This document shows, piece by piece, positions 9,408 to 47,900 of a DNA stretch of 64,000 bases; positions within the stretch are counted from its first letter, which is position 1, and each line of letters starts with the position of its first letter. A program made the translations under genes and the position numbers. Source of the DNA: Nymphaea colorata (lineage: Eukaryota; Streptophyta; Magnoliopsida; Nymphaeales; Nymphaeaceae). The notes under the pieces were generated by a model that saw nothing but the letters and a program-made list of their open reading frames with translations, ran no database searches and was not told where the DNA came from. The stretch is taken from the NCBI RefSeq assembly GCF_008831285.2, contig NC_045150.1, positions 374,001 through 438,000 of the forward strand, read 5' to 3'.

Positions 9408-9591
9408 CTAAGTCACATGGGTATTTCAATAAAGTTTGTCGCAAGTGCATTGAAAGTGAGTATTTCAATACATTTGAGTAATTTTCAGCTCGAAGTTGAT
9501 CCAACCTACTTAATTTTACTTGATTTAATTTTTTCTAACTCAGTTTTTATTTTATTTTTTGAAGTTATTACTCATTAATATATAATGTTTT

Positions 9592-9634
<43 letters not shown>

Positions 9635-9724
9635 TTGCATACCCATATTTTCTAAAAGTTGTTAGGTTCATACCCATATATTTGTATCCACACCTGAATT
9701 ATATCTGTACCCATGTGACGTAAG
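9408..9724. mobile_element. hAT-type MITE, CTAAGTCACATGGGTA family, copy 1
   Basis: The left end CTAAGTCACATGGGTA is matched in inverse by the right end TACCCATGTGAC plus GTAAG. It is about 317 bases long, non-coding, and has a (TA)n tract at 9594-9631. The same ends are found at 26113, 31269 and 46759. No target duplication is clear here, so its exact ends are less sure than in the other copies. Confidence 0.6.
9594..9631. repeat. (AT)n microsatellite
   Basis: About 19 AT units, inside the MITE at 9408-9724. The family tends to carry short AT runs at this position. Confidence 0.9.
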
Positions 9725-19200: not shown

Positions 19201-22200
19201 CATTTTGGTAATGAAATAGTCAACACAGTTGTACAGTAGTTGATAGGATGCTGCCAATACAACCAAGACTCATGAGTAAATTCTCATTTTTTCAAGTAAT
19301 TCACTGCAATTGGTCGACATTCTTCTTTTTCTTCCTCACTTTTTCCCCTCCTTTTGCGTTTGTTCTCCATGCCTTCTTTTTCTTTTTTCCACATTCCTTT
19401 TCTCTTTCTACTTGGTGAACATCACAATTTTCACTTCTAACTTGGTTTCTGGTTGCTCCCTACATCTTGCTTCTTTGCTTTTTAATTATTTTACTTTAGA
19501 TTCCTTTTTTGCTTCCAATTTGCTTCTGCTTGCTTCGTATTTCATAATTCATTTCTAGTTCTCTCGCCACTTCCCACTCCATAAAACTGTTAAGGGTCTG
19601 GCTTCTTGCTTTTGTTTCCTGTAAATCTGTTGACTCCAACTTCCACGACTGCTAACTCTGGGAAAACCAATTCCAATTTTTCAATTTTCCCTTTTACCAC
19701 AGAATTGTTTCAGTGGTAAGAGCCATTAGATTATAAAATTTATCCAAAACATCTATCAAGCAGAAACCAGGTTTCAGGGTAGCTGAAGGGAAATGTTGTT
19801 CTCTGTTTCTTAAGTTCATGCTTCAACATTCTAATTTGTTCCCATGTTTTCCATTCTTCTCTCTAATTTTCTAGTGTGTATAGTTTGCTATCTCTACATT
19901 ATCTCTATATAACACAGGGTTTGGAATAACTGCTATGTAAATTTTCAGGAATGCACCCTTGCTATTCTCATATGTGTACCATCCACTTGGCAACTTTCCT
20001 ACTCTACCCATAAACTAAGCACCAAAGACAAAAAAATCTCATCAATCTCCACTGCTGAGACAACGTTATCTTGGTGAAGAAAAACACGAACACAATGTAC
20101 AAGCAGACATACGCAAATATGATTTCTCATGAAGGAAGATAATCCATTACTAAGGATTGAACAAAGAACCCAGATAAACAGAATAGAAAACAGGAAACAT
20201 ATCTGAAAAAATATAAAGAAGCATTAGCATTGATGACTTTAAAGCACCTGATTGCTTGCATTTCTTTCAAGCTCTTCCTTCAGTTTTTGTTCTGCCACCT
20301 AAATCCACAAAGAGAGAGAAAAAGAAAGAGATGTGAATTTTCCACCAAATAATGCTGTAGAAACAATCACACAGGTTGCCAAAGTGGCAGAATAGATGGA
20401 GACAAACCCTAATGTTGTCCTGAATGGAACTGCTGGTAGGATCGAGTTGTAGAGCTGCATAAAATTTTCAAAAGAAAATGAAACAATTGTAAAAAGAACT
20501 GACATGATCAGTCTACCATGTGTGATGATTCAGGTATAGCAGTACCAGGTGCAGCCAACAACCAAGCAACTTTCAACTTTCAACCACAGAAAGAAACCAT
20601 GCAGAGCACATTGAAATGGAAAAATATTGGCATAAAAAAGTTTCAAGATAAACAAATCAATGGAACAGAAAGGTGATCTAATTTTTTCTATAATAAAAGT
20701 TGTATGGAAATGTCTGATTCCAATGCTAAACTGCAGGAGTTGTTTAAAAGCTGAAAAATTCTGCCTTTTCAATATGAGGGACAAGACAAGAGTTTCCTGT
20801 GTCAAGACACACACACACACACACAAGGTGCCACATGTCAATGCACCTCTCTTGACTATAAATAAAGGCCCTTTTCTTTGTATAGATATGCATTTCTTAT
20901 GCTTTAGGAATATAGTGAATGTTGATGTGTTATGTATGCGTGAAGTTCCGCGTTGCTGAGATCGTTGCCCTCCCTGTGGTCGCCTCTTTCCTGCCACTGC
21001 TACAGTGCTCTGCCTGCTCTGTTGTTGCCCTCCCTGCAGTCGCTTGCTCTGTTGTTGCCCTCCCTGCGGTCGCCTCTTCCCCGTCGCTGCTGCCTCTGCA
21101 GTCTTTGCTTTCTGCATTGTCTAAACAGTTCTGTTGCTGCTTGGGGTCGTTGCCTGCATCGCCCCAGTCATCTTCTGCTGCAGTTTGGGTGGCATCTCCC
21201 GAGCCCTCTGTTTGGCCATAGTAACCCGCATGAGGGTTCTACCTCTGCCGTCGCCACCTGTGCAGCTGCCGTTGCTGCTTTTATCTGCAGCTTACTGTCG
21301 CTGCTTCTGCCCGCAGCTGCCGTCGCTGCTCCTTCGTGCTTGGACTTGCGCCTTGGTGCCCTATTTGACTTTTTGTTGGAGAATCTTTTGTTCTTATGCT
21401 CTTTGTTGACGATGAGGCAGCTTTTTGAATATTAAAGAACCTGACAGTTCTTTAATTATTTTTTAATATCTTTCTAGTTTACAATGTAATTATGCTTTGT
21501 GCCTTACCCGTACCCAATAGCTTAGCCGCACCCACTTTTGCATACCCACGTACCAGAGCGGGTACGTGGCGCAATTCCACGTAGCCCTGTCACATAGACC
21601 CCTACAAAACTCAAACTGATCAAATTATGTTACGTGGTCTTTGACTATCAAGTATCACATTCAAGGAAAGGCCCTATCAAAAGCTTTCCTATGCTAACTG
21701 GTTTTAGGCAACCTACCAATTGGGAATGCATAAATCACCTAGGACGCTTTGGCGTTTTTCATTGACAAACCTGTAGAAATAAGCACCACACACACGAACA
21801 CATGATCTAACGTGGAAAAACCCCTCACAAAACGAGGAAAAAACCACACGAGATGAGAAGGTAGTGAACGGTGCCCACTAGCAGTCGTCACGCCCTCTCT
21901 CACTCTTAAACTTTATTCACCTTTGAAATAAGAGGTTACGAGACATATTTAAGAGACATAGTACCGGGTCAGGTCTGGACCCAAACCCGACCCATCCAAA
22001 CAATCGTCAACACTCCCCTCAAGTTGGGCATACAAGTCAAACATGTCTAACTTGAATACATTTTTTCTCAAACAAGGTGAATGATAAGGCTTTGGACAAG
22101 ACATCTGAAATCTGATCTTCAGTCTTCATGTACGGGGAGTACAAGTTCTCTTGAGTCCATTCTTTCACCAATGAAGTGACGATCAATCTCCACATGCTTC

Positions 22201-25200
22201 GTCCTCTTATGAAATACTGGATTGTTGGTTAAACTTATGACTGACTTGTTATCACAATACATCTTCATAGGACTGTCAATTTCAATTCCAATGTCAGACA
22301 ACAAAACTTTCATCCATAGTAACTTTGAGACCCCCATAGCAACTTCCCGATATTCAGCCTCAGCACTCAAACGAGAACACACGTCTTGTCTCTTGCTTCT
22401 TCAAACCACAAGATTTTCTCCCAAGTAAATACAATAGCCTGTAGTAGACCTCCTTGTATCTGTACAACCTGCCCAGTCTGCATCTGAGTATCCTTCTTAC
22501 CTAGATTTTTCTTCAAATAACATAAGATTCTATCTATAGCTTTCAAGTGAACATCAGTAGGAGCATGCATGAATTGGCTCATCACATTAACTGCAAAAGT
22601 AATGTTTGGTCTCGTGGGAGTAAGATAAAGCAACTTTCCAACAAGACATTGATATCTTCCCTTTTTTCCTTCATCTAGGAACTCCCCATCCTTGATGCTG
22701 ATTTTATTTCCTGCTTCTATGGGAGTAGGAGCAGGTCTGCAGCCAAGTTTCCCAGTCTCCTCCAACAAATCTAAGGTGTACTTTCTCTCATTTAAAACAA
22801 GACTTGTACCTAATCGAGCAATCTCCATCCCAAGGAAATACTTAAAATTTCCAAGGTCCTTGAGGTCAAACTCGATAGCCAACAGTTTCTTCAGTCCCAC
22901 AACCTCATCTTTGTCATCTCCTGTTACAGTCATATTATCAACATATACCAAGAGAATAACAACCTTGTGCCCACTTCTTTTTACAAAGAGAGTGTGACCA
23001 CCATTACCCTAATGATATCCATACTTCTTCATCACAATCCTAAGACGTTCAAACCACGCTCGAGGAGATTGTTTGAGTTCATACAGAGCCTTCTTCAACT
23101 TGCAGCATTTACCACTATTCTCATATCCAGGAGGCATACACATATATACCTCTACTTCAAGATCTTCATTCAGAAAAGCATTCTTAACATCGAGTTGATA
23201 CAACTGGCACTCCTTCACCACTGCCAATGCAATAATAAGTCTTCATCTTTGCAATAAGAGCAAACGTTTCCAGATAATCGATTCTATATTTCTGACTAAA
23301 ACCTTTGGCTACCAACCGGGCTTTGTATCTGTCTACACCACCATTAGGCTTCTACTTGATGGTATAAACCAACGTTATAAAAGGCGTAGCGTATCGTGTA
23401 TCGGTCGGGCCGACCTATACACTGTATCATAATGTATCGTAAACGTAGCGTAACATATCGTAAATTAATTATTTAATTCATAAAAATATTTAAAAATAAG
23501 AAAAAAATAGAGAAAAAATCCGTAAGATCAGGAAAAGCAAAAAAATCAATTATAAGGAAAACTCATCACATCATTCATTAGCCATAATATATTAACAATA
23601 CTGAACATTTAGAAATGACAAATAAGAAATTCATAACAATATAATAAAACATCCATCAAAACTTTAAAGTTTAAACTTTAAAGTGTTTTGGATTACATTA
23701 CAAGTTTGCAACAAATAATATATTATGATTATCATCAATCAAGTTCCCATCATCCCCACGGGCCATGAGTAAACCTTCTTATCGACAAGCAAGTTCTCCT
23801 CTAAATCGATGATTTATCACATAAATGGGTGATTTTTGTAGAAAAACTAATAAACTTTCCCCTCCGACAACTTTTAGACACGTTTAGAAAGAGGGAGAAT
23901 TTTTTTTTTTGTAAAAAACCACAAAAAATAATTTTATCCCTGTATCGTACGATAAAGGGGGGTATTGGTGTGTATCGAGGCGTATTGTACGATACAACCC
24001 CGTACACACGATACAACCGAAATACCTACGATACATATAAGCGTATCGTGTATCATAGGCGTATTGAAAAACCTATACGATACGTATTGCACGATATGGG
24101 CCCATGTCGTGCGATACAAATAACACTGGTATAAACCCACTTGGATCCTACAAGATGAGCATTTTCAGGTATACTCACAACTTCCCATGTCCTATTTTTG
24201 TCAAGTGCTTCCATTTCTTCTTGCATTGCATGCATCCACTTGGAATCAACCCGAGCCTCAACAACAGTCCTGGGAATCAGAGACATAGAGAGAGAGGATA
24301 TAAAGCATTTGTAATGTCCACTTAGTTTAGAACACGACATAAAATTACCAATAGAATATTGGACACATGACCTGGTGCCATTTCATAGAGCGATAGGCAA
24401 CTCTTCAATAGTAACTCCCTTTTGACCTCCTTCAATTGACCCCCCCACAAGCTAGACTTGGATCATTTGGGTTAGGTTCAAGATTGGAATTAGTGTTGTC
24501 CTCAAGCTCTGCTCTAGCCGAACTTCGCCTCAAATATACCTACCCAAACAAGTGGTCCTGCTGCCCTTCATTACCAATCGTGTGATCATCACACTTTCCT
24601 GCAGGTTCCGGCTGGCTACTGATGTTAGGATCAGAACATCCATGAGTTTTATTCTCCAAAAAGTCAGTAAATTGAATCTCTTGATCTGGAGAATACTCTT
24701 CATTCCTCCATGACAACTCCCCCTGAAGAGGATTCGCACCAAAAAAGGATATATGTTCCAAAAATGTGACGTCTTTTGTCACATAAATACGATCAGTTGA
24801 AGGGTCAAGACACTTGTATCCTTTCTGAGTAGGAGAGTATCCAAGGAGGACTCCCTTAATGGATCGTGGGTCAAGTTTTCTAATGGTGGGGCTGTGATTG
24901 TGAATAAAGCAGACACACCCAAAACACACGCGGTGAAAGTGGAAAAGGATCACGACCAGCCATTAACACAAAGTGCGTCGTAGAGCCATTAACACAAAAT
25001 TGACGATCCAAGTCTTAACTTGATTATCCTCAAGGAACCATGTGTCTCATGCTGGATTTGTTTCAAGTGGTTCAGCCTTTCTTCCATTGATATAGGCAAT
25101 CCATCCACGACCGGCGATGCCCATAGTAATGGCAGCAGACCAGCGCATGTAATTATCCGTGGTAAGTCTACTTGATATGGAATATTTTCAGTTTTGGAAA

Positions 25201-28200
25201 CCCCGACATCCACACAGTCAGTACTAACTACTAACAACTGAGGAGGCTAACTCCGCCATCCCAATGCAGTAACTTAACAATAAAAAATCGAAGAGAATAC
25301 GCTTGTGACACGCAGCAGCGCAGCAATTGAACAAACAACAACTGCACCAGAGGATAATACCAGTGAGAGGTCTGTTGCTGATTACAGTGAGAGAACTGGG
25401 AGGCAACACAGCAGATGGGTCGGCTGACTGTAGAGAGAGGTCGGGCAATGCTATAGCCTCAAGTGAAGGCTCGCAACAGTACGGGCAACTGTTGTTTAGA
25501 TAGACGGTGTTCTCAGGCGCTGGTAGCTAAGGCGGTGGCTCACACGGTGGACGACAACTGGACACTGTGCAACAGGCGGGAGTTGTGTAGCAGGCGGAGG
25601 TTATGCAGCTCAAACGGGACGATGGGCAACATAAGACCAGAGACAGAGACGTCGTGCAGGATAGGCGACGGCGTGCAGGACAGGCGACGGTGGGCAACAA
25701 AAGACTAGCGACAGGGGACCACTGTTGACAACGGAAGCTCAGGCGATGGCAACAGGGTCTCGACGACAACGATGACAGCTGAGGACGACGCCGTGTGCAG
25801 CAAGCTGACGACGAAAAAAAAGGAAAAATAAACGATCCCGTACGCCACGCTCAAACAGGCTGCAGCACAGGCGACGACATGGGCAGTGACAGAGGATGGA
25901 AGCTGCTCATAAATTTGTGGCTCTGATACCATGTAGAAATAAGCACCACACACATGAACACACGATCGAATGTGGAAAAACCCCTCACAAAACGAGGAAA
26001 AACCATGCGAGATGAGAAGGTAGTGAACGGTGCCCACTAGTAGTCGTCACACCCTCTCACTCTTAAACTTTATTCACCTTTGAAACAAGAGGTTACGAGA
26101 CATGTTTAAGAGCTAAGTCACATGGGTACTTCAGTAAGGTCCACGTACCCGTGTCGTCGTACTCGTACCCAAAACGGGTACTTGGACTCACTTGGGCACC
26201 TTTATATTCAAAATGCTTAATTTTACTTTGATTTAATTTTTTCCACTTTACTTTTCATTCTATTCTTAGAGTTATTGTTCATTAACATATAATGTTTTTA
26301 TTTATATCACTTGTTTACTAAAATGTTGCTTTCACTTTGATTTTTTTGTGTTATTTTGCATATATGTATATATATCCTGCCGTACCACCGTACCCACATT
26401 TTTTAAAGTTTTCGTGTCCGTATCTCCCCATACCCATACCCATGTGACTTAGTTTAAGAGACATAGTACTGGGTCGGGTCTGGACCCAAACCCGACCCAC
26501 AAACAATCATCAACAAACCAAAATTTTGTGCTTTTTGGGCCTTGGTGCATATTTACTGGGTATTCTTCGTGATTGGCCTTTAGTGACATTTTCCTTTCTT
26601 CTTTGGGTTGGTTGTGCATGTTTTGCAGGCATTTTTACAGTTAACTGGGAAGATCCACAAAACTGAAATTGTACCATGAGGATCTAGGTAATTGAATATA
26701 TTTTCAGATTTGAGTTTGATATAGTATTTTTCTAATTTATTGTTTACTTATACTTTGTTTCACGTGTCCTTAAATTTACAGTGGAATAAATTTGAGAATA
26801 GATGCCCACATCTAAAAAAACTTGCAGTTAAAATCCTCAACAGTACATGCAACGCAAGCAGATTTGAGAAGAACTAGTGTTTTTCGGTAAGAAAAGAAAT
26901 AGGCCTGATGTAACACAGACATCCATTTTTATGTTCCATACTGTAGGCAGATGAGAGAAAGGTACTGTACATGGAAATTCAACAGGTTTTGTTGACTGTG
27001 TATTATAATGATAAAATGGATGAAGGAAAAAGACAACACAAAAGGAAGAGGTTGAAGCAGAAGATCAGATCAACAAAATAAGAGGGATAGAAACCATATT
27101 TGGCAGTTATCAGGTAGAGTTAACAGAATGCCCTACAAGAGAGAGAGAGAGATTTGACCATCAGATGATAGGTAGAGTGCGTTTGCTACAATACACACCC
27201 TTGTTACACTTAACATAAAAACAAAATAAACACATATCTGTGTGTGTGCGCACACACACACACACATATGGACATGTGAAAGCGGTGTTAATCAAACTTT
27301 TAACAATGAAGTTGGTTGTGTCAAATTGAAACAACCAAAGCATATCCAAATAAAGTAAATCTGCAAACATATAACTCCTTTGAAGGTCAAGAAGTTACTG
27401 TTAGTTTTCGAACTAAAATCACCAAAAGCCACTTTGTTACTTTCATAAAGTGCATGTTTTTGCATGACCACCCAGATAAAACATAAGTTGACTAGTTCTC
27501 AGAACTTAAAAGCCACTTTGTGGATTCTGTCACAAAGATCAAACTGGGATATTTTCAGCTTACCTGTTCATGGGAACCTTATGCATAGACATATTCTATG
27601 GTTGATCTACCCTTCAGTTACTGGACTTGAGGAAATGGAAAGGTCCAAATACAAGTCACATGGTTTGTTGATACCATAATGTTGCATTAAAATCCATACA
27701 TACAAACATGTATATATGCGAGTTCATCAAGTTCCTATCATATAGATGGAACATGCAGGCATTGGGATCTGATATAAGACAATGCCCACGCACGCTGACA
27801 CAGAACATCCATATCCCTTCAATGAGTGACTCTCAACTATGCAGGTCTGAGATTTTCTGAATACCTTGATCAACCATTAACAATCAAGGACGTATGAAGT
27901 TCACCCTTCAGATAACATACAAAAATACAGAAGAAAACAAGACAATGTCTCAAGGCCCTCAACATCAAAAGTATCAAACAAGAGTGTGTAATGCATATAA
28001 ACATGCCTTTCCAACTCGAGCATTATATTGCTCAAATCTGGAGCAGACAATTTAGCATGAATTTTGCACTCTATCACATAGTACCAAAATGTTGTTCACA
28101 ACAGTGTACAGCTCCATCAGAAACAAGGTTAATGTGTAAAAGGTTGGAAATGTATCTTGTTTAAACTGCCACCAACCTTTCAAAAACCCTTGAGAAATTG

Positions 28201-29542: not shown

Positions 29543-32500
29543 CGAGAGAGAGAGAGAGAGAGAAGGGGGACTTTTGGAAACAAACCACAAAAAAAGCTAA
29601 GAATGGTAAAAATTTCTCATTTAGAGATTCTTGGGTTTAATTAATGCATACATTGGATGGATGTTCAGTAAAATGTGTATGCATATATAAATAGGTTGAC
29701 AATCAAGATATATATAAGAGAAGAATTCTGGATTTGGACCAGGGTCCAAATCCAAATCAAATTAATGTTAAGGCATTCCCCTTTTCTGAACTGAGAAATA
29801 AAAGGGGCCTTACTCGTTCTAGGTTGTAGAAAGATTGAGAGAGATTGAAAAAGTAAGATTGACAGAGTGAGGATTTTAAGAGAGGGAGTTAGAGAAAAGG
29901 CAAGGGTTTTAACACGAGAGAGAGTTGAGAGACAACGAGAGAGGGCTGCTCGGTGCAGCCATTGTGCAAGAAAAAAAAAAGGCAGATAGTGTCTCACAGC
30001 AGAGAAGAAGAAGAAGGAGAAGAGGAAAGGGGCAGAGGAAGAAGAATAGAAAGAAGAGGAAGACGGAGGAGAAAAAAGAAGAAGCAGAAGAAAAGGAAGA
30101 GAAGGAGGACAAAGAAGAAGAAAGATAAGAGAAAGAAGAGGAAGGGATTGCATTGATATTTGATAGTGTAAGATCATGCACGTACCTACCTACGTATGAT
30201 CCCTCATATTTTTAGTTTCCAGATCTTAGCCCTTACCCTAGAGGGTTACATATTTATCTAGTTTGTCATCATACTTTGAAGGCTCAACCTTCTATTGTTT
30301 TCTCTTTTTCAAGTCCCAACAGACCATGATAGGAGGTTGATTAGAGGGTGTAGCTCACATTCCACTAGGAAGTTGTGTGCATTATTGTGTTGGTCAGTCG
30401 TGTGTTGCTTTTTTGGTCCATGAATGTCTTTTTGGTTTGAAACATCATTGTTTTGTTATGGGGTTACTTATGTTCATGTAAAGTTGTTTTTGTACAACCT
30501 TTTGTGCATAAATGAAATATTTAGCCCTATTCTTATTTTGAAATAGTAGGTCTGCTTTGACTGTTGTATCATTGTACCATGATGGCTTGTGCTCAAAGAA
30601 AAAAAAAAGGTGAATAATAATGGTGCGACAAAAAGTGTTTTTAAATAGAAAACTGACCAAAGAAGTGTATGTGGAAGCTCCTCCTGGAATGAACATTTAT
30701 GGAAAGGTGCTTCATTGAAAAAAAAAAAAAGCTCTCTATGGTCTTAAACAAGCACCAAAAACATGTTTTGACAGATATAGCGATATAATGATAAAAATGT
30801 GGCTTTCACTCTTGCCATGCTGGCACTCAAAAAAAATCTGAAAATAGAATTGTAATTCTTTTATTATATGTTGATGATATGATCATCACTGGAAGTGATA
30901 ATAATGGAATTAAGGAAATCAATAGTCCCTTAAAAGGACAGTTTGAAATGACAGACTTGGGATATTTAACCTATTTCTTTGGAATAGAGGCAGCCTATTC
31001 CAACAGAGGATATTTTCTATCATAACCAAAGTTTGCTTTAGATATTGTTGCAAGATATTGTTTAATAGATGATCAGGAAGTTGAAACTCCAGAAGTTCTT
31101 GGATCAATAATGAAAATTGATGATGGGTCCTTGTAAAGAATCCTACTCCCTATAGACAATTGATTGGAGCTTTTATTATTTAAATATCAGCAGGTCAAAT
31201 ATTTTTCACGCTGTGCATGTGGAAGTCGGTTTCAACATAATCCTACATTTGTGCACATGAGTGCTGTTCTATGTCACATGGGTGCGGGTATGGTATGGGT
31301 ACGGGTACAACGATACGGGTTTAGGTACGGCAATTTTGAAAATTATGGGTACGAAGATACGACAAACTTTTAAATTCTCAAAAATGATAAAATGAAAAAA
31401 AAACATTAAAAGTTCATAAGTGTAATCCCATAAAAAAGTCTACAAACAAAATAATAAAAAGATGCAAAACAAAAAATATATAATGATCAGAAATATCAAA
31501 GAATAAAACAATAAGCAATCAGCTGTTACAGAAAAGTGAGAAAACCGATCATGATCAGGCTATCACTCTTCATTTAGGCTTGTGCACAAGCTTGGCTGAT
31601 CGGTAGCATCACTTCTTTTGGTTGATGAAGAGAATTGAAAGAAATAGCTGATAGATTCATCAAATTTTTAAATTTTAGTCAAAAGTGGCAGAAACCAAAC
31701 AAAACTGGCAAGCGGAAATAGCCTATAGAAATAAAATGCAACCAAACAAAGGTGGCAGCAAAAGATAAACACATAAAATCAAACAAAACATCAAAATGTA
31801 TACAAATCTATAGATTTTCAGTTCAATCTTCAAATAAAAACATCCCCAAATCAAAAAAAAGAAAAAACCCCTAATAAAAAAACGTAACCCTAAGTTGTAA
31901 TAGTGAAACAAATAAAAAAAACACTTAACCTATCTGCCGCCAATTGCCGTCATGCACCGCCGGACGTCATCGCCAACAACCGTTATCGCTCTACTGCTCC
32001 ACTGTGGAACAGCCACAATGCCGGTCCAGGTCGAGCTGAAGAGCTGGACCTTTCACAATATAAAAATTTATCGTTTGGATTGGGTCTAACTCATACCCGA
32101 TCCAACCCGTACCCAACATTCTCACTGTACCAGCATACCGGAGCGGGTACGTGGGACCATCCCACGTACCCATGTCACATAGGTGTTGTATTGAATAATA
32201 AAATATGTTAAAGGAACTCTATCAAGTGGTTTATGTTTATCATCTTCATTAAGTTTGACGGCCTGTGATTGGGGAAGTGATACACATAATCGGCACTCCA
32301 CCACTAAATTTTGTGTCTTTTTAGGTGATTGGCTGATATGATAGAGGGGTAAAAGGCAACAAAAAGTTTCATTATCCTCAATTGAGGCAAAATACCGAGT
32401 TATAATGACAACAATAACAAAATGTATGGTTAAAGCAGTTAATTCAAGATATGGGAGTTCTTCACCAACAGTCGATATATCTTTGTTGTGATATCAAGAT

Positions 32501-41955: not shown

Positions 41956-44900
41956 GCAAGTGGGCTGTTAATATGGTAAGTACTTCAAGCTTTAATTTAT
42001 ATATATATATGATACGATGAGAGAGAGAGAGCCAAAAAAGAATACTTCACTTACGTAACCCTAATCTCTTTTAAAAGAGATTAGGGCTGGCTGTAAACAT
42101 TTTACAAAAAAGGTCCAATAACAATATGAAAATATTTAAAGAGCACCTCTCTAACTTTCTAATATTTCAAGGCGTGATCAGATCCTTGTTTATCAATCTT
42201 GTGGATGATATGGCTGCTGTGATCAGATTTTGTGTTGACCGTGGGGAGCAAAATATCCTATAGATTGTGGATGTTAAGTTTGTCCTATAGATTGTGGATA
42301 TGAAGTCTGAAAGTTAAAGCTTAATGAGCTGTGGACTGCTGCTGATCGTAAGTATGAATCTAACATTTGATTATGTTGAGATTCTTGCCATATGTCGTGC
42401 ACAACCAATCTTATGTGGTGTGGCTGTATTTAAGAATAGCAGCAGCCATTTGTTGATGGTGGAAGTAGTTGCTGTCTTTGGCAGATATTGTTGAAGTTAA
42501 TATTTATTGTCTCTTGAAGATTTCCTGCCTGTGTTGTCTTCATCGGCTGCAACTATTATTTGAGTATCTGCTGTGTTTCTTTCCTGTTTTACTGCCTAAA
42601 TTTCAGTCAATATTGCTGCTTGTGTCTGTTGGAAATATTCAGAGTTTACGCCTGGGTTGCTGCCTGCTTTATTGAACTTCTGATTTGATATTGGAGCTGT
42701 AAGAATTTTTAGATTCTCCTGCATTGCAGTGATTTTGACATACCTCTAATATTAGTAGCCAGCTGGGTCCTCTTGATTTATTATGGCTGAAAACGGTAAA
42801 TCAGAAAGTTCTATTGAACACAAGATGGCTGGAAATTCATTCTCTTATGGAACCACGATAAAATTGAATGGTTCAAACTATGAAATATGGTCTAGGGTGT
42901 TCATGATGTCTGTGGCTGGGCATAAAAAAAAATATGTTCTTGAGGAGGATGAACCTACTGAGAAAAAGGGGATATATGCTGCATGGGATGAAGATAATTA
43001 TATTGTTATGTCTTGGATTATGAATAGTGTGAAGTCTCATATAGCCGCAACTATTGCATATTACACCAAGGCCAAGGATATGTGGTCTTTCTTGAGGAAG
43101 ACATATTCGCATGCTACTAATGTAATTAAAATCCTGCAATTGGAAGAAGAGCTATGCAACATACGACAAGGGGATTAAGATTTATCTCAGTATTTTGCTA
43201 CTTTGACTGTTGCATATGAACGGTTAAAGGCTCTTCGTCCACCTTGCCAACATTGTTATGCATCACATTTTGAAACTGGTATGGTAGCGAAGTTTCTATC
43301 TGGCTTATCTCCAGAATACTCTGTGGCAAAGTCTCAAATTCTCACAGGCAGTGATCTTCCAGATCTAGTAGACACGTATAATAGGCTGAGTCGTCTTGCA
43401 GTCACTCTTTCTCAGAATACGTAAGACACACCAGTCTCTGCTCTTGTGATATCAGAAGGACAGGTCCCCAGTTCTTTTGGTGGCAGTAGGGGACGTGGTA
43501 CAGGCCGTGGTGTAGGACGTGACAGATTTCAGTGCTCTTATTGTGGCAAAATTGGTCATCTAGAGGATCGTTGTTGGGACAAACATCCTCACCTCAGTTC
43601 TAACGTTTCCTCTGGACGTGGTGGAGGTAGACTCGCCACAAGCAAAGGTCCTTCTTCATCCCAAGCAACTCATTCAAAGGCAACAATATCTATGGTTGAG
43701 TCTTCTACTGATCCTTCTATATCTATGTCATATTCTCTTAAGGATGAATATGATCGTGTTCTTGCTCAAAGGTCTGCCTCTACATCTGCCAATGCTACTG
43801 TTATAGATTCAGCATTCTCTGTTGGTGCTCCTACTGATGATCCAGGTATGACATGGATGATAGATTCTGGCGCTTCTAGACATTGTTGTAATCAACCACA
43901 GATTTTTTCATCATTTGTTAGATTTTCTACACCACAGCATGTTAGGCTGGTTGATGGCAAGCTGTCTCCTGTTTTGGGCAGCGGTGATATCTACCTTCCA
44001 CATTTAGGCACTATTACACATGTGCTATATGCTCCTCAGTTTCCTGTTAATTTGTTATATGTTAAGCAGCTAGCTATCGACTTACAATGTAAAGTCATTT
44101 TTGAACCTCGCTCTGATACCATGATACGATGAGAGAGATAGAGCCAAAAAGAATACTTCACTTACATAACCCTAATCTATTTTACAAAAAAGGTCCAATA
44201 ACAATATGAAAATATTTAAAGAGCACCTCTCTAACTTTCTAATATTTCAATAAAACTCTTTTAACAATATATATAAAGACAGGACAGTTCAATGTTGCCG
44301 TGTACTGGATGTTGCTGGATGGCTAAAATTCAAAAATTGTCATTAATAAATAGTCACTAAGTTGACATTAGCCAAGGTTTATGATGCGGCAATGGTTTAT
44401 GATGGCTTGAGCGACGATTCATGGTTTTTTTTAGTGACAAAGTTTGAAATTTAGTCATCCAACAACATCCAGCACGCAACAGCATTGACTTTCCCATATA
44501 ACTGCTGACATGACGATCAAATGGGAAAGATGACGCCTCTCCCTCCTGAGACAGGAAGGCAGTGTCTCTCTCTAGGAGGGGGGAGACTGAGAAGTGACAA
44601 CTCCTCTCTTCTGATTTCGTTCTCTACCAAGAAGGGGGAGGCATCAGCCTTCCCTTCTCTAGTGAACTTTCTCCTGATTTCCCTCTACCTCAAGAAGGAA
44701 GGTGTTGGCCTCCACCACCAACCAAAAAAGAAAATGAGAAAAAAAAAAAAAAAAAAAGGTGCACAATCAAATGATTGCGCACTGAGGAAAGCATGACTGC
44801 TGGCCTTTATCATCAGCAGTCATGCCTCCTATACATACACAGATATACATATACCTGCACAACCACAGCCAAGTTTTTTAAAAAAATGGCACACTGGCAC

Positions 44901-47900
44901 TCGTACCCATCGGATCCATACCCATGCACTCTTGATAAAGGAGAATGGAGAACTGGACCGAGGGAAAGATTTTTTATAGTTCAATCTGGACATTAAGTTC
45001 TCATGTCTCACAAAAGCAGCTCTACTAGATTGAAAAATCTGTAATCAAGATTTTGCGTGTGGAACACTTCAAAGATTTCATAAAGCTTTTTCTTCTTTTT
45101 CTCTTGTTTTTCATTTTAGTTGAATATTTTTGTCTTCATAACTAATTAAATGCATTTAACAGCTATCCCTTATAGACACATGTCCATGTCTATAATTTAA
45201 AATAGGTAGCTATTTATGCAAAATGCAGAAAGATATTTTATTGTTTTTGACATGTTCTACTTGTGGCTGCACAATTCCTTTTCAAGAAAGGAATAGTTAA
45301 GCTATTTATGCAATATAACCTGTATTCGCATGTCTTTTCCTTATAGTGCAGGAAACCACCAAGTTTTCAGAACTTGTGGGCCTAGGTGGTTCAAATTACC
45401 ATCCAATACTGTCACAGTTTGCAAAATCCAGCAATGCAACAAGGACACTTTAAGGAGATTACTGAACCCTTGTTACAACTGTACCGAATGCTGGTGCAGC
45501 TCTGACTCGTCAAATTCAATCACTAATCATGTCAAATGCAACTAACTGCACTTTCTACACATTAGACTCAAGTTTGACTCAAGCCATATGTTTTCAAGTG
45601 TCGTTAACTCACATTATTCTCATAAACAGTTTGTTTACACCCTTCTTATGTAACATGTCTATTTTTGTTTGGCCACATATACCAGAACTTGCTACATTTG
45701 CATTCAAATGTTGCATTATATGTATACCCACACCTGTATCTATATGACATATAACTCCAGGCACCTCTTCCTTGCTCAGAAACTCTCACCAGCTCCAAGC
45801 ATTGCAGCAAGGGACACACACCCTGAATATTGAACCATTGTCTGCATCAACTTGCTCTTAAGTTTACCAAACTATCCGGGTGACTGGGAATCAAACGAAT
45901 GTGAAAAAAGAAAATGAAAAGAATGAAAGTGGAAAATATTAGACAAAAGCAGACATCAGCCAAATAATCAAGGCACTATATTGGCCTATAGTCCTCCTGT
46001 GCCTAAATATCTATGAGCCATGTGCATGTCACAAATAGCATCTGCATTTTACAACTAAATCAACCATGAAAGAGCAAAAAGTTAATATTACATATAGCAC
46101 TCATTGCCACCAAAACATGGACGAGCAACAAATTTACAACAAAACCAAAGATCCAACGTTCAAGCCCATACCTGCATTTTTCGCATCAGAAGGGGAACCC
46201 TCACTCTGAAAGAAAAGTGAATCAATTATCATTGTAAACGTGCACTTAATAAATAAACATGCAAAATATGTAGAAATTCAAAAATTCAGTTTATCTTATA
46301 TCTAATACTGGAAAGAATCTGATCATAGATATATGGTGAAAACAAATACCAAGCATCAGTAGCGGAGCTACATGTGACGCTAGCCCATTAAAAGTCTCAT
46401 TGCCAAGGAGCTGAACCTGGGTTCAACAACTTGTGTTGCTCATTGCAGACCCGGGTCACTACCCCGCTGTCCCCACAGCCCTGGAAACAAAGGTCGACCT
46501 ACTCAAGTCTCAACCCAACTTTGAACTCTTGGGTATCACAGTGAGTGGGACACGACACTCAAAATCGAGTGGCATTTTGATTTTGGCATTTTACCCTACT
46601 GTCGACCTTCCTAGCAATTTTCCCACCCCACCTTGGGCAATCTTTTGGACCTCTGTCCTCCAGGCTTCTATCACTGTCATCTGTGCTTTGCCAGTTCAGA
46701 TCATCATCAGGTGTCAACTGTTGCATCGGTGTGCCATCGGTCAAGGTTTGCCCTCAAACTATGTCACATGGGTACGAGCAATATGGCCAAGTACCCATGT
46801 CAGTACATGGGTACGACGACACGAGTACATAGGTACGGCTGCGTATAGCTGTATTTTAAAACTTAGAAATTTATCTTTTCAAATTTAATCTTTGACTTTT
46901 TCCTTCTTTTTATTTCCCTTGCACCTAGATGCTATATTTTTCTCCCCTTTTTCTTTAATTTTGAGAATTTTTGTGGATTATCATATATATAATGTACATA
47001 TTTATATATATGCTCTGCCGTACTCCCGTACCCATAATTTTCAAAACTGGTGTACCCATACCCACATAGCCCCCAAACCAATACCCGTGGTGAGTGGTTC
47101 TTCTTCTTCTTGAGTTCATTTCTTATATATTTCACTTTCTCACCATGCCCTTCCATGCTTGTTCCATTGTGTGGGTTTCATAGTCGCTGGTGTAGCCATG
47201 TTGGCACCAAACAGTGAAATCAAGGGATAAGGGCAAGTGCGATGGGTGCTCAATAAGTCACTCTCTCTCTCTCTCTCTCTCTCTTCCCCCCCCCCCCTCT
47301 TTCTTCTTATTCCTTTGATTGGGGTGTTTCTATTTGTGCTTTCTGATTGTTTTTTTGAGGGTTCCAATTCGCCCCTTTTGTTTGCTCATTTTGGAGTCTC
47401 AGTTTGCCCTTTTTATTTTATTTATGCTGAACACCATTTATTTTGTGGTCATTACAATTGTTGTTTAATATGGAATTTGTCGGTCTTGAAAGCATGGATT
47501 GCATATACAACATTAATTTTATGCATTTGAATTCTTTGTTTTTCCTGTTGCTGTTGCTTTTTTTTTAACTGTAGAAACTGACTAATTTTTACATTATTTT
47601 GTCTGATTTGACTCTGTCCAAGCCGCTGGCTGCTGCCATTTTTATTGTGGCAGAAATTTTTTATTTGCTTCCGATGCTACTCTGCTCACACAAAGGCTTT
47701 CCGAATTTGCAACAAACCTATGTCAATTAACTTCTCAGTTTATTATAAAGAAGAGTAGAACAGAAGACTAAAATTTGCACTGGCAAGTCACTGAACACAG
47801 ATTTTATAAATTACCACAGGAAATCATGACTAAATGTTCAAAGTTCCAAGGCCATTTGACCAATTGGTCCTTCTTGTATTAATAAAGTACTAACTTGTCA

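Follow-up and report, generated by a model that had tools for sequence, protein, structure and literature searches.

A MITE of probable hAT type in one LTR of a Nymphaea colorata copia element, recognised by the empty site in the sister LTR

A stretch of 64,000 nucleotides of Nymphaea colorata DNA (hereafter, the window) contains a copia LTR retrotransposon in which one LTR is split by a 340-bp MITE, whereas the sister LTR holds a single copy of the target site. The MITE at 26113-26452 is a real insertion in one LTR, an ordinary case of a known kind of event, and it is best read as a hAT-type MITE that moved after the copia element had inserted, an interpretation in which we have high confidence. 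The features on which this is based are the following.

26113..26452, plus strand: MITE of 340 bp with an AT-rich middle (20% G+C), below transposase-coding length
26113..26128, plus strand: left terminal inverted repeat CTAAGTCACATGGGTA
26437..26452, minus strand: right terminal inverted repeat, perfect complement of the left one
26105..26112, no strand assigned: left target-site duplication TTTAAGAG
26453..26460, no strand assigned: right target-site duplication TTTAAGAG
21948..21955, no strand assigned: empty site, single TTTAAGAG in the sister LTR
25932..26515, minus strand: 5' LTR of the copia element, interrupted by the MITE
21772..22012, minus strand: 3' LTR of the copia element (itself on the minus strand), uninterrupted
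22367..22951, minus strand: copia reverse transcriptase fragment, RVT_2 (E 4.1e-12)
24540..24953, minus strand: copia fragment, SH3_retrovirus domain (E 5.4e-24)
23371..24127, no strand assigned: second, unrelated repeat of 757 bp within the same copia element

The borders of the MITE were re-read and agree with an earlier note on this DNA, which had described a 340-bp insert with perfect 16-base inverted repeats and 8-base flanks; its termini are complementary at 16/16 positions. The element is short, has inverted termini and belongs to many copies of similar length (332-400 bp for the MITEs of the family, 37 copies), with transposase coding excluded by length only, as expected of a MITE. The strong hairpin that it can form (z = -6.0) was not read as an RNA function, being due to the inverted ends; neither an Rfam match reaching the gathering score nor a tRNA was detected in the window.

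The host belongs to the copia group: on the minus strand, the frame matching SH3_retrovirus, on the integrase side, comes before the one matching RVT_2 (Pfam), which is the copia order, and the LTRs are paired. Over an alignment of 237 positions, these LTRs are separated by 13 substitutions, of which 12 are transitions (K2P 0.058). The distance from the SH3 frame to the 5' LTR is only 978 bp, and the gag side of the element looks shortened. The 757-bp repeat is bounded by the 10-bp sequence GGTATAAACC at 23361-23370 and 24128-24137, and 22 of the 43 genome matches listed, itself included, span nearly its full length, which fits the borders 23371-24127; from the length of the duplication, a Mutator-like origin may be guessed. 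Other copia fragments were seen at 42783-44132 of the window (plus strand), corresponding to Pol_BBD and, slightly below the cut-off, Retrotran_gag_2.

The earlier note had also claimed that the same sequence lies unbroken in one LTR and split in the other, with both 8-base flanks matching the single copy. Both flanks do match the TTTAAGAG of the sister LTR and the site itself is identical, but the bases preceding it are not, reading ACATG in the filled LTR and ACATA in the sister. This G is one of the 13 LTR substitutions and, as the MITE also ends in G, it allows an apparent duplication of 9 bp. The LTRs of five other copia copies (L109-L113) are uninterrupted and carry an A before the site in all five cases, the site itself being TTTAAGAG in L109, ATTAAGGA in L110, TTTAAGGA in L111 and TTTAAGGG in L112 and L113. 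Therefore, the G arose later in the filled LTR and the target site was duplicated over 8 bp, not 9 bp, so that the exact ends and the duplication length originally proposed stand, the five other LTRs having settled the choice between the two lengths.

Using an empty sister site to recognise an insertion is a standard approach. Reverse transcription copies both LTRs from one template, and since only one of them carries the MITE, with a single site in its sister, the MITE is younger than the copia element; the order that had been put forward, copia first and MITE second, thus holds. In a tree of 38 sequences, the terminal branch of the copy at 26113-26452 is 0.020 compared to an LTR half-divergence of 0.029, in agreement with this order. 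The window MITE differs from the majority consensus of its family by 5.0% (0.050), above the LTR half-divergence of 2.9%, and changes shared by a subfamily can explain this distance; as a test of the order, divergence is weak either way, the comparison of counts not being significant (p = 0.65). More empty sites were found in repeated DNA for other copies (49 flank pairs tried, duplicates included; five inspected). The 8 bp were intact at the empty sites of L062, L032 and L053, with an adjoining 2-bp length difference in L062, and the empty sites of L012 and L107 were looser, with 6/8 bases matching.

Two other histories could leave a MITE in only one of the two LTRs. As DNA transposons are able to excise, the MITE might once have been present in both LTRs and have been cleanly lost from one, but the sister LTR retains exactly one copy of the site without a footprint and the insertion is absent from the LTRs of the five other copies, which makes such a history extremely improbable. 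Alternatively, LTRs from different insertions could have been joined by recombination, in which case the order could not be read from them. The flanks of the copia element match only over 4 exact bp (AACC, at 21768-21771 and 26516-26519), and the copia target duplication is usually of 5 bp, in line with such a joining; against it, the two LTRs are mutual best matches, with 92-93% identity, while none of the other matches in the best 40 of 376 candidates exceeds 84%, and we regard it as very unlikely. Thus, insertion of the MITE into an already resident copia element remains the preferred reading.

The family was then characterised in the assembly (407.8 Mb, referred to as 408-Mb; 783 contigs). 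When up to 3 mismatches are allowed, the window contains seven occurrences of the end motif CTAAGTCACATGGGTA, whereas shuffled sequence gives a mean of 0.5, and CTAWGTCACATGGGTA has 615 exact matches (292 + 323) in the 408-Mb assembly, compared to none for the reversed control. Four 13-base end strings had no occurrences in the literature searched. The best 40 of 762 first-look candidates were all read with their flanks: a recognisable end was missing in three (L022, L025 and L034), leaving 37 copies with both ends. The duplication was exactly 8 bp in 20 of these 37 and matched at no fewer than 7 of 8 positions in 27, no copy had an exact duplication of 7, 9 or 10 bp, and a clear 8-bp duplication was absent from 10; one copy, L009, is compatible with a 7-bp duplication if a single mismatch is allowed. 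This is the tabulation of family duplications suggested by the earlier note, and it upholds the 8-bp length. In a second set, consisting of the first 30 exact ends on contig C1, an end pair with at least 6/8 matching flank bases was detected at 17 loci, giving 12 distinct exact duplications and 16 of at least 7/8; the remaining 13 loci had no such pair, and a flank-led search then recovered exact duplications for L042 and L044.

The elements with these ends that were read are 157-1081 bp long. Different subfamilies resemble each other at the ends only, whereas within the subfamily of L051, L053, L059, L062 and L064 the similarity extends over the full length; this subfamily has about 155 bp of one end in common with the window copy, at 81-89% identity. 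A candidate compound element on C1 near 2.224 Mb (L045 and L047), with two perfect ends and unequal flanks, was rejected, as it is actually a tandem duplication (88.5% identity over 1976 aligned bases) with one MITE copy per unit. Three further elements with related ends lie inside the same 64-kb window, none with an assigned strand.

31269..32182: 914-bp element whose ends are of this type, flanked by GTGCTGTT and GTGTTGTA (6 of 8)
46759..47069: 311-bp element whose ends are of this type, flanked by CCCTCAAA and CCCCCAAA (7 of 8, by sequence reading)
9408..9723: diverged 316-bp relative, duplication not recognised

For the 914-bp element, 26 of the 43 other genome matches listed exceed 500 bp.

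The earlier note had placed the family in hAT from the 8-base duplication. As 8-bp duplications are also made by other superfamilies, this ground taken alone was too strong, but hAT is still the best label, now on account of the target bias and the end repeats. Among the 32 exact duplications of the first and second sets, one of which (ACACACAC) lies within a simple repeat, folded position 2 is T in 36/64 cases, compared to a background frequency of 0.316 (p = 4e-5), and folded position 3, for which no prediction had been made, is T in 34/64. The duplications thus lean towards nTTnnAAn, in which the hAT target preference nTnnnnAn appears as a bias and not as a rule. The 37 copies also show the clustered subterminal repeats expected of hAT elements: the motif TACCC/GGGTA occurs 152 times in their first 90 bp and 152 times in their last 90 bp, compared to three times in the 6468 bp of their middles. 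Two of 17 compared elements of the wider group (L068 and L070) have hardly any end repeats. The inverted ends of hAT elements start with YARNG; the tips found here, CTAAG or CTATG, fit at positions 1, 3 and 5, with T instead of A at position 2.

This misfit, the fact that 8 bp are not exclusive to hAT and the presence of MULE transposases in the genome (191 first-look candidates, 150 scored) would agree with a family belonging to another superfamily of similar look, such as Mutator, whose duplications are usually of 9 bp and sometimes of 8. However, no duplication of 9 or 10 bp, either exact or with one mismatch, was detected in the 37 copies, and the nTTnnAAn bias also speaks against Mutator, so that we consider this assignment improbable. 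The hAT label for the MITE group, for which the target sites and the end repeats are the grounds, is therefore taken as likely, and it is kept at this level because of the position-2 difference in the tips and because partial searches found no coding partner.

The same plan is known from other systems. Maize Ds and Ds-like hAT elements are described as having shared ends, unlike middles and 8-bp duplications, with lengths between about 400 bp and about 1 kb, and Ac as carrying subterminal repeats (PMC3260210). The elements analysed here resemble Ds in being heterogeneous and non-autonomous, with common ends, subterminal repeats in some of them and 8-bp duplications; they differ from it in the end sequence and in that the autonomous Ac is known in maize, whereas a partner was not found here in partial searches. 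For Hermes, also of the hAT superfamily, an nTnnnnAn target preference of the transposase and subterminal repeats are reported (PMC10368747), and 8-bp target sites of this form and short motifs repeated near both ends are likewise present here, although the motif is TACCC instead of the AAG(T/C) of Hermes. Plant MITEs have also been studied through related empty sites, as in 20 families of Brassica (PMC3991616), a paper in which the term 'related empty site' is used; these are likewise MITEs, but other families from another species. Based on the duplication bias, the packed TACCC/GGGTA repeats and the Ds-like plan, the group is taken as hAT-type, and likely consists of hAT-type MITEs together with larger non-coding relatives.

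The hAT dimerisation domain is abundant in the genome (1113 first-look candidates, 150 scored), and a coding element with these ends was sought in partial searches of hAT loci, lone ends and one insert, with negative results. When 28 hAT loci were scanned for the 16-base end, the best match had 4 mismatches (4/16, at L078, L079, L080, L083, L088 and L090), and none of these loci contained a 120-bp stretch with more than two TACCC/GGGTA motifs. The end-like motif of L079 and L080 was discarded as a transposon end, as the same bases continue after the motif in both. The 150 scored hAT places, from the 1113 candidates, were also compared with 180 exact end places, drawn from 100 listed of the 615 16-base ends and 100 listed of the 103 18-base ends, and the nearest pair was 14 kb apart. 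Nine lone ends were extended 5 kb inward without any frame being recognised as a transposase (by eye); the frames resembled host genes and another copia element, also by eye, and the extensions of L105 and L107 contained additional end-like motifs without a matching duplication. In L108 (C8:11709000-11712450), a 914-type element is interrupted by about 3.3 kb of DNA whose longest frame is 187 aa. This insert has 12 frames of 80 aa or longer, and Pfam gave no match for the 10 of them that were scanned. It is conceivable, though rather doubtful, that the group with its 615 exact ends is driven by an undescribed hAT branch with CTA(A/T)G tips and TACCC binding sites, or that its coding element is already extinct here.

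With regard to its movement, the MITE would have been transposed by cut-and-paste with a transposase supplied in trans. Such a hAT transposase may bind the TACCC repeats that are clustered towards either end and would cleave the element at its CTA(A/T)G tips, and a staggered cut of 8 bp in the target would produce the duplication.

For a large MITE family, the empty sister LTR thus fixes the exact ends and the length of the duplication, and the nesting of the MITE in the copia element gives the order of events. This aids the annotation of the assembly, while general ideas are left unchanged.
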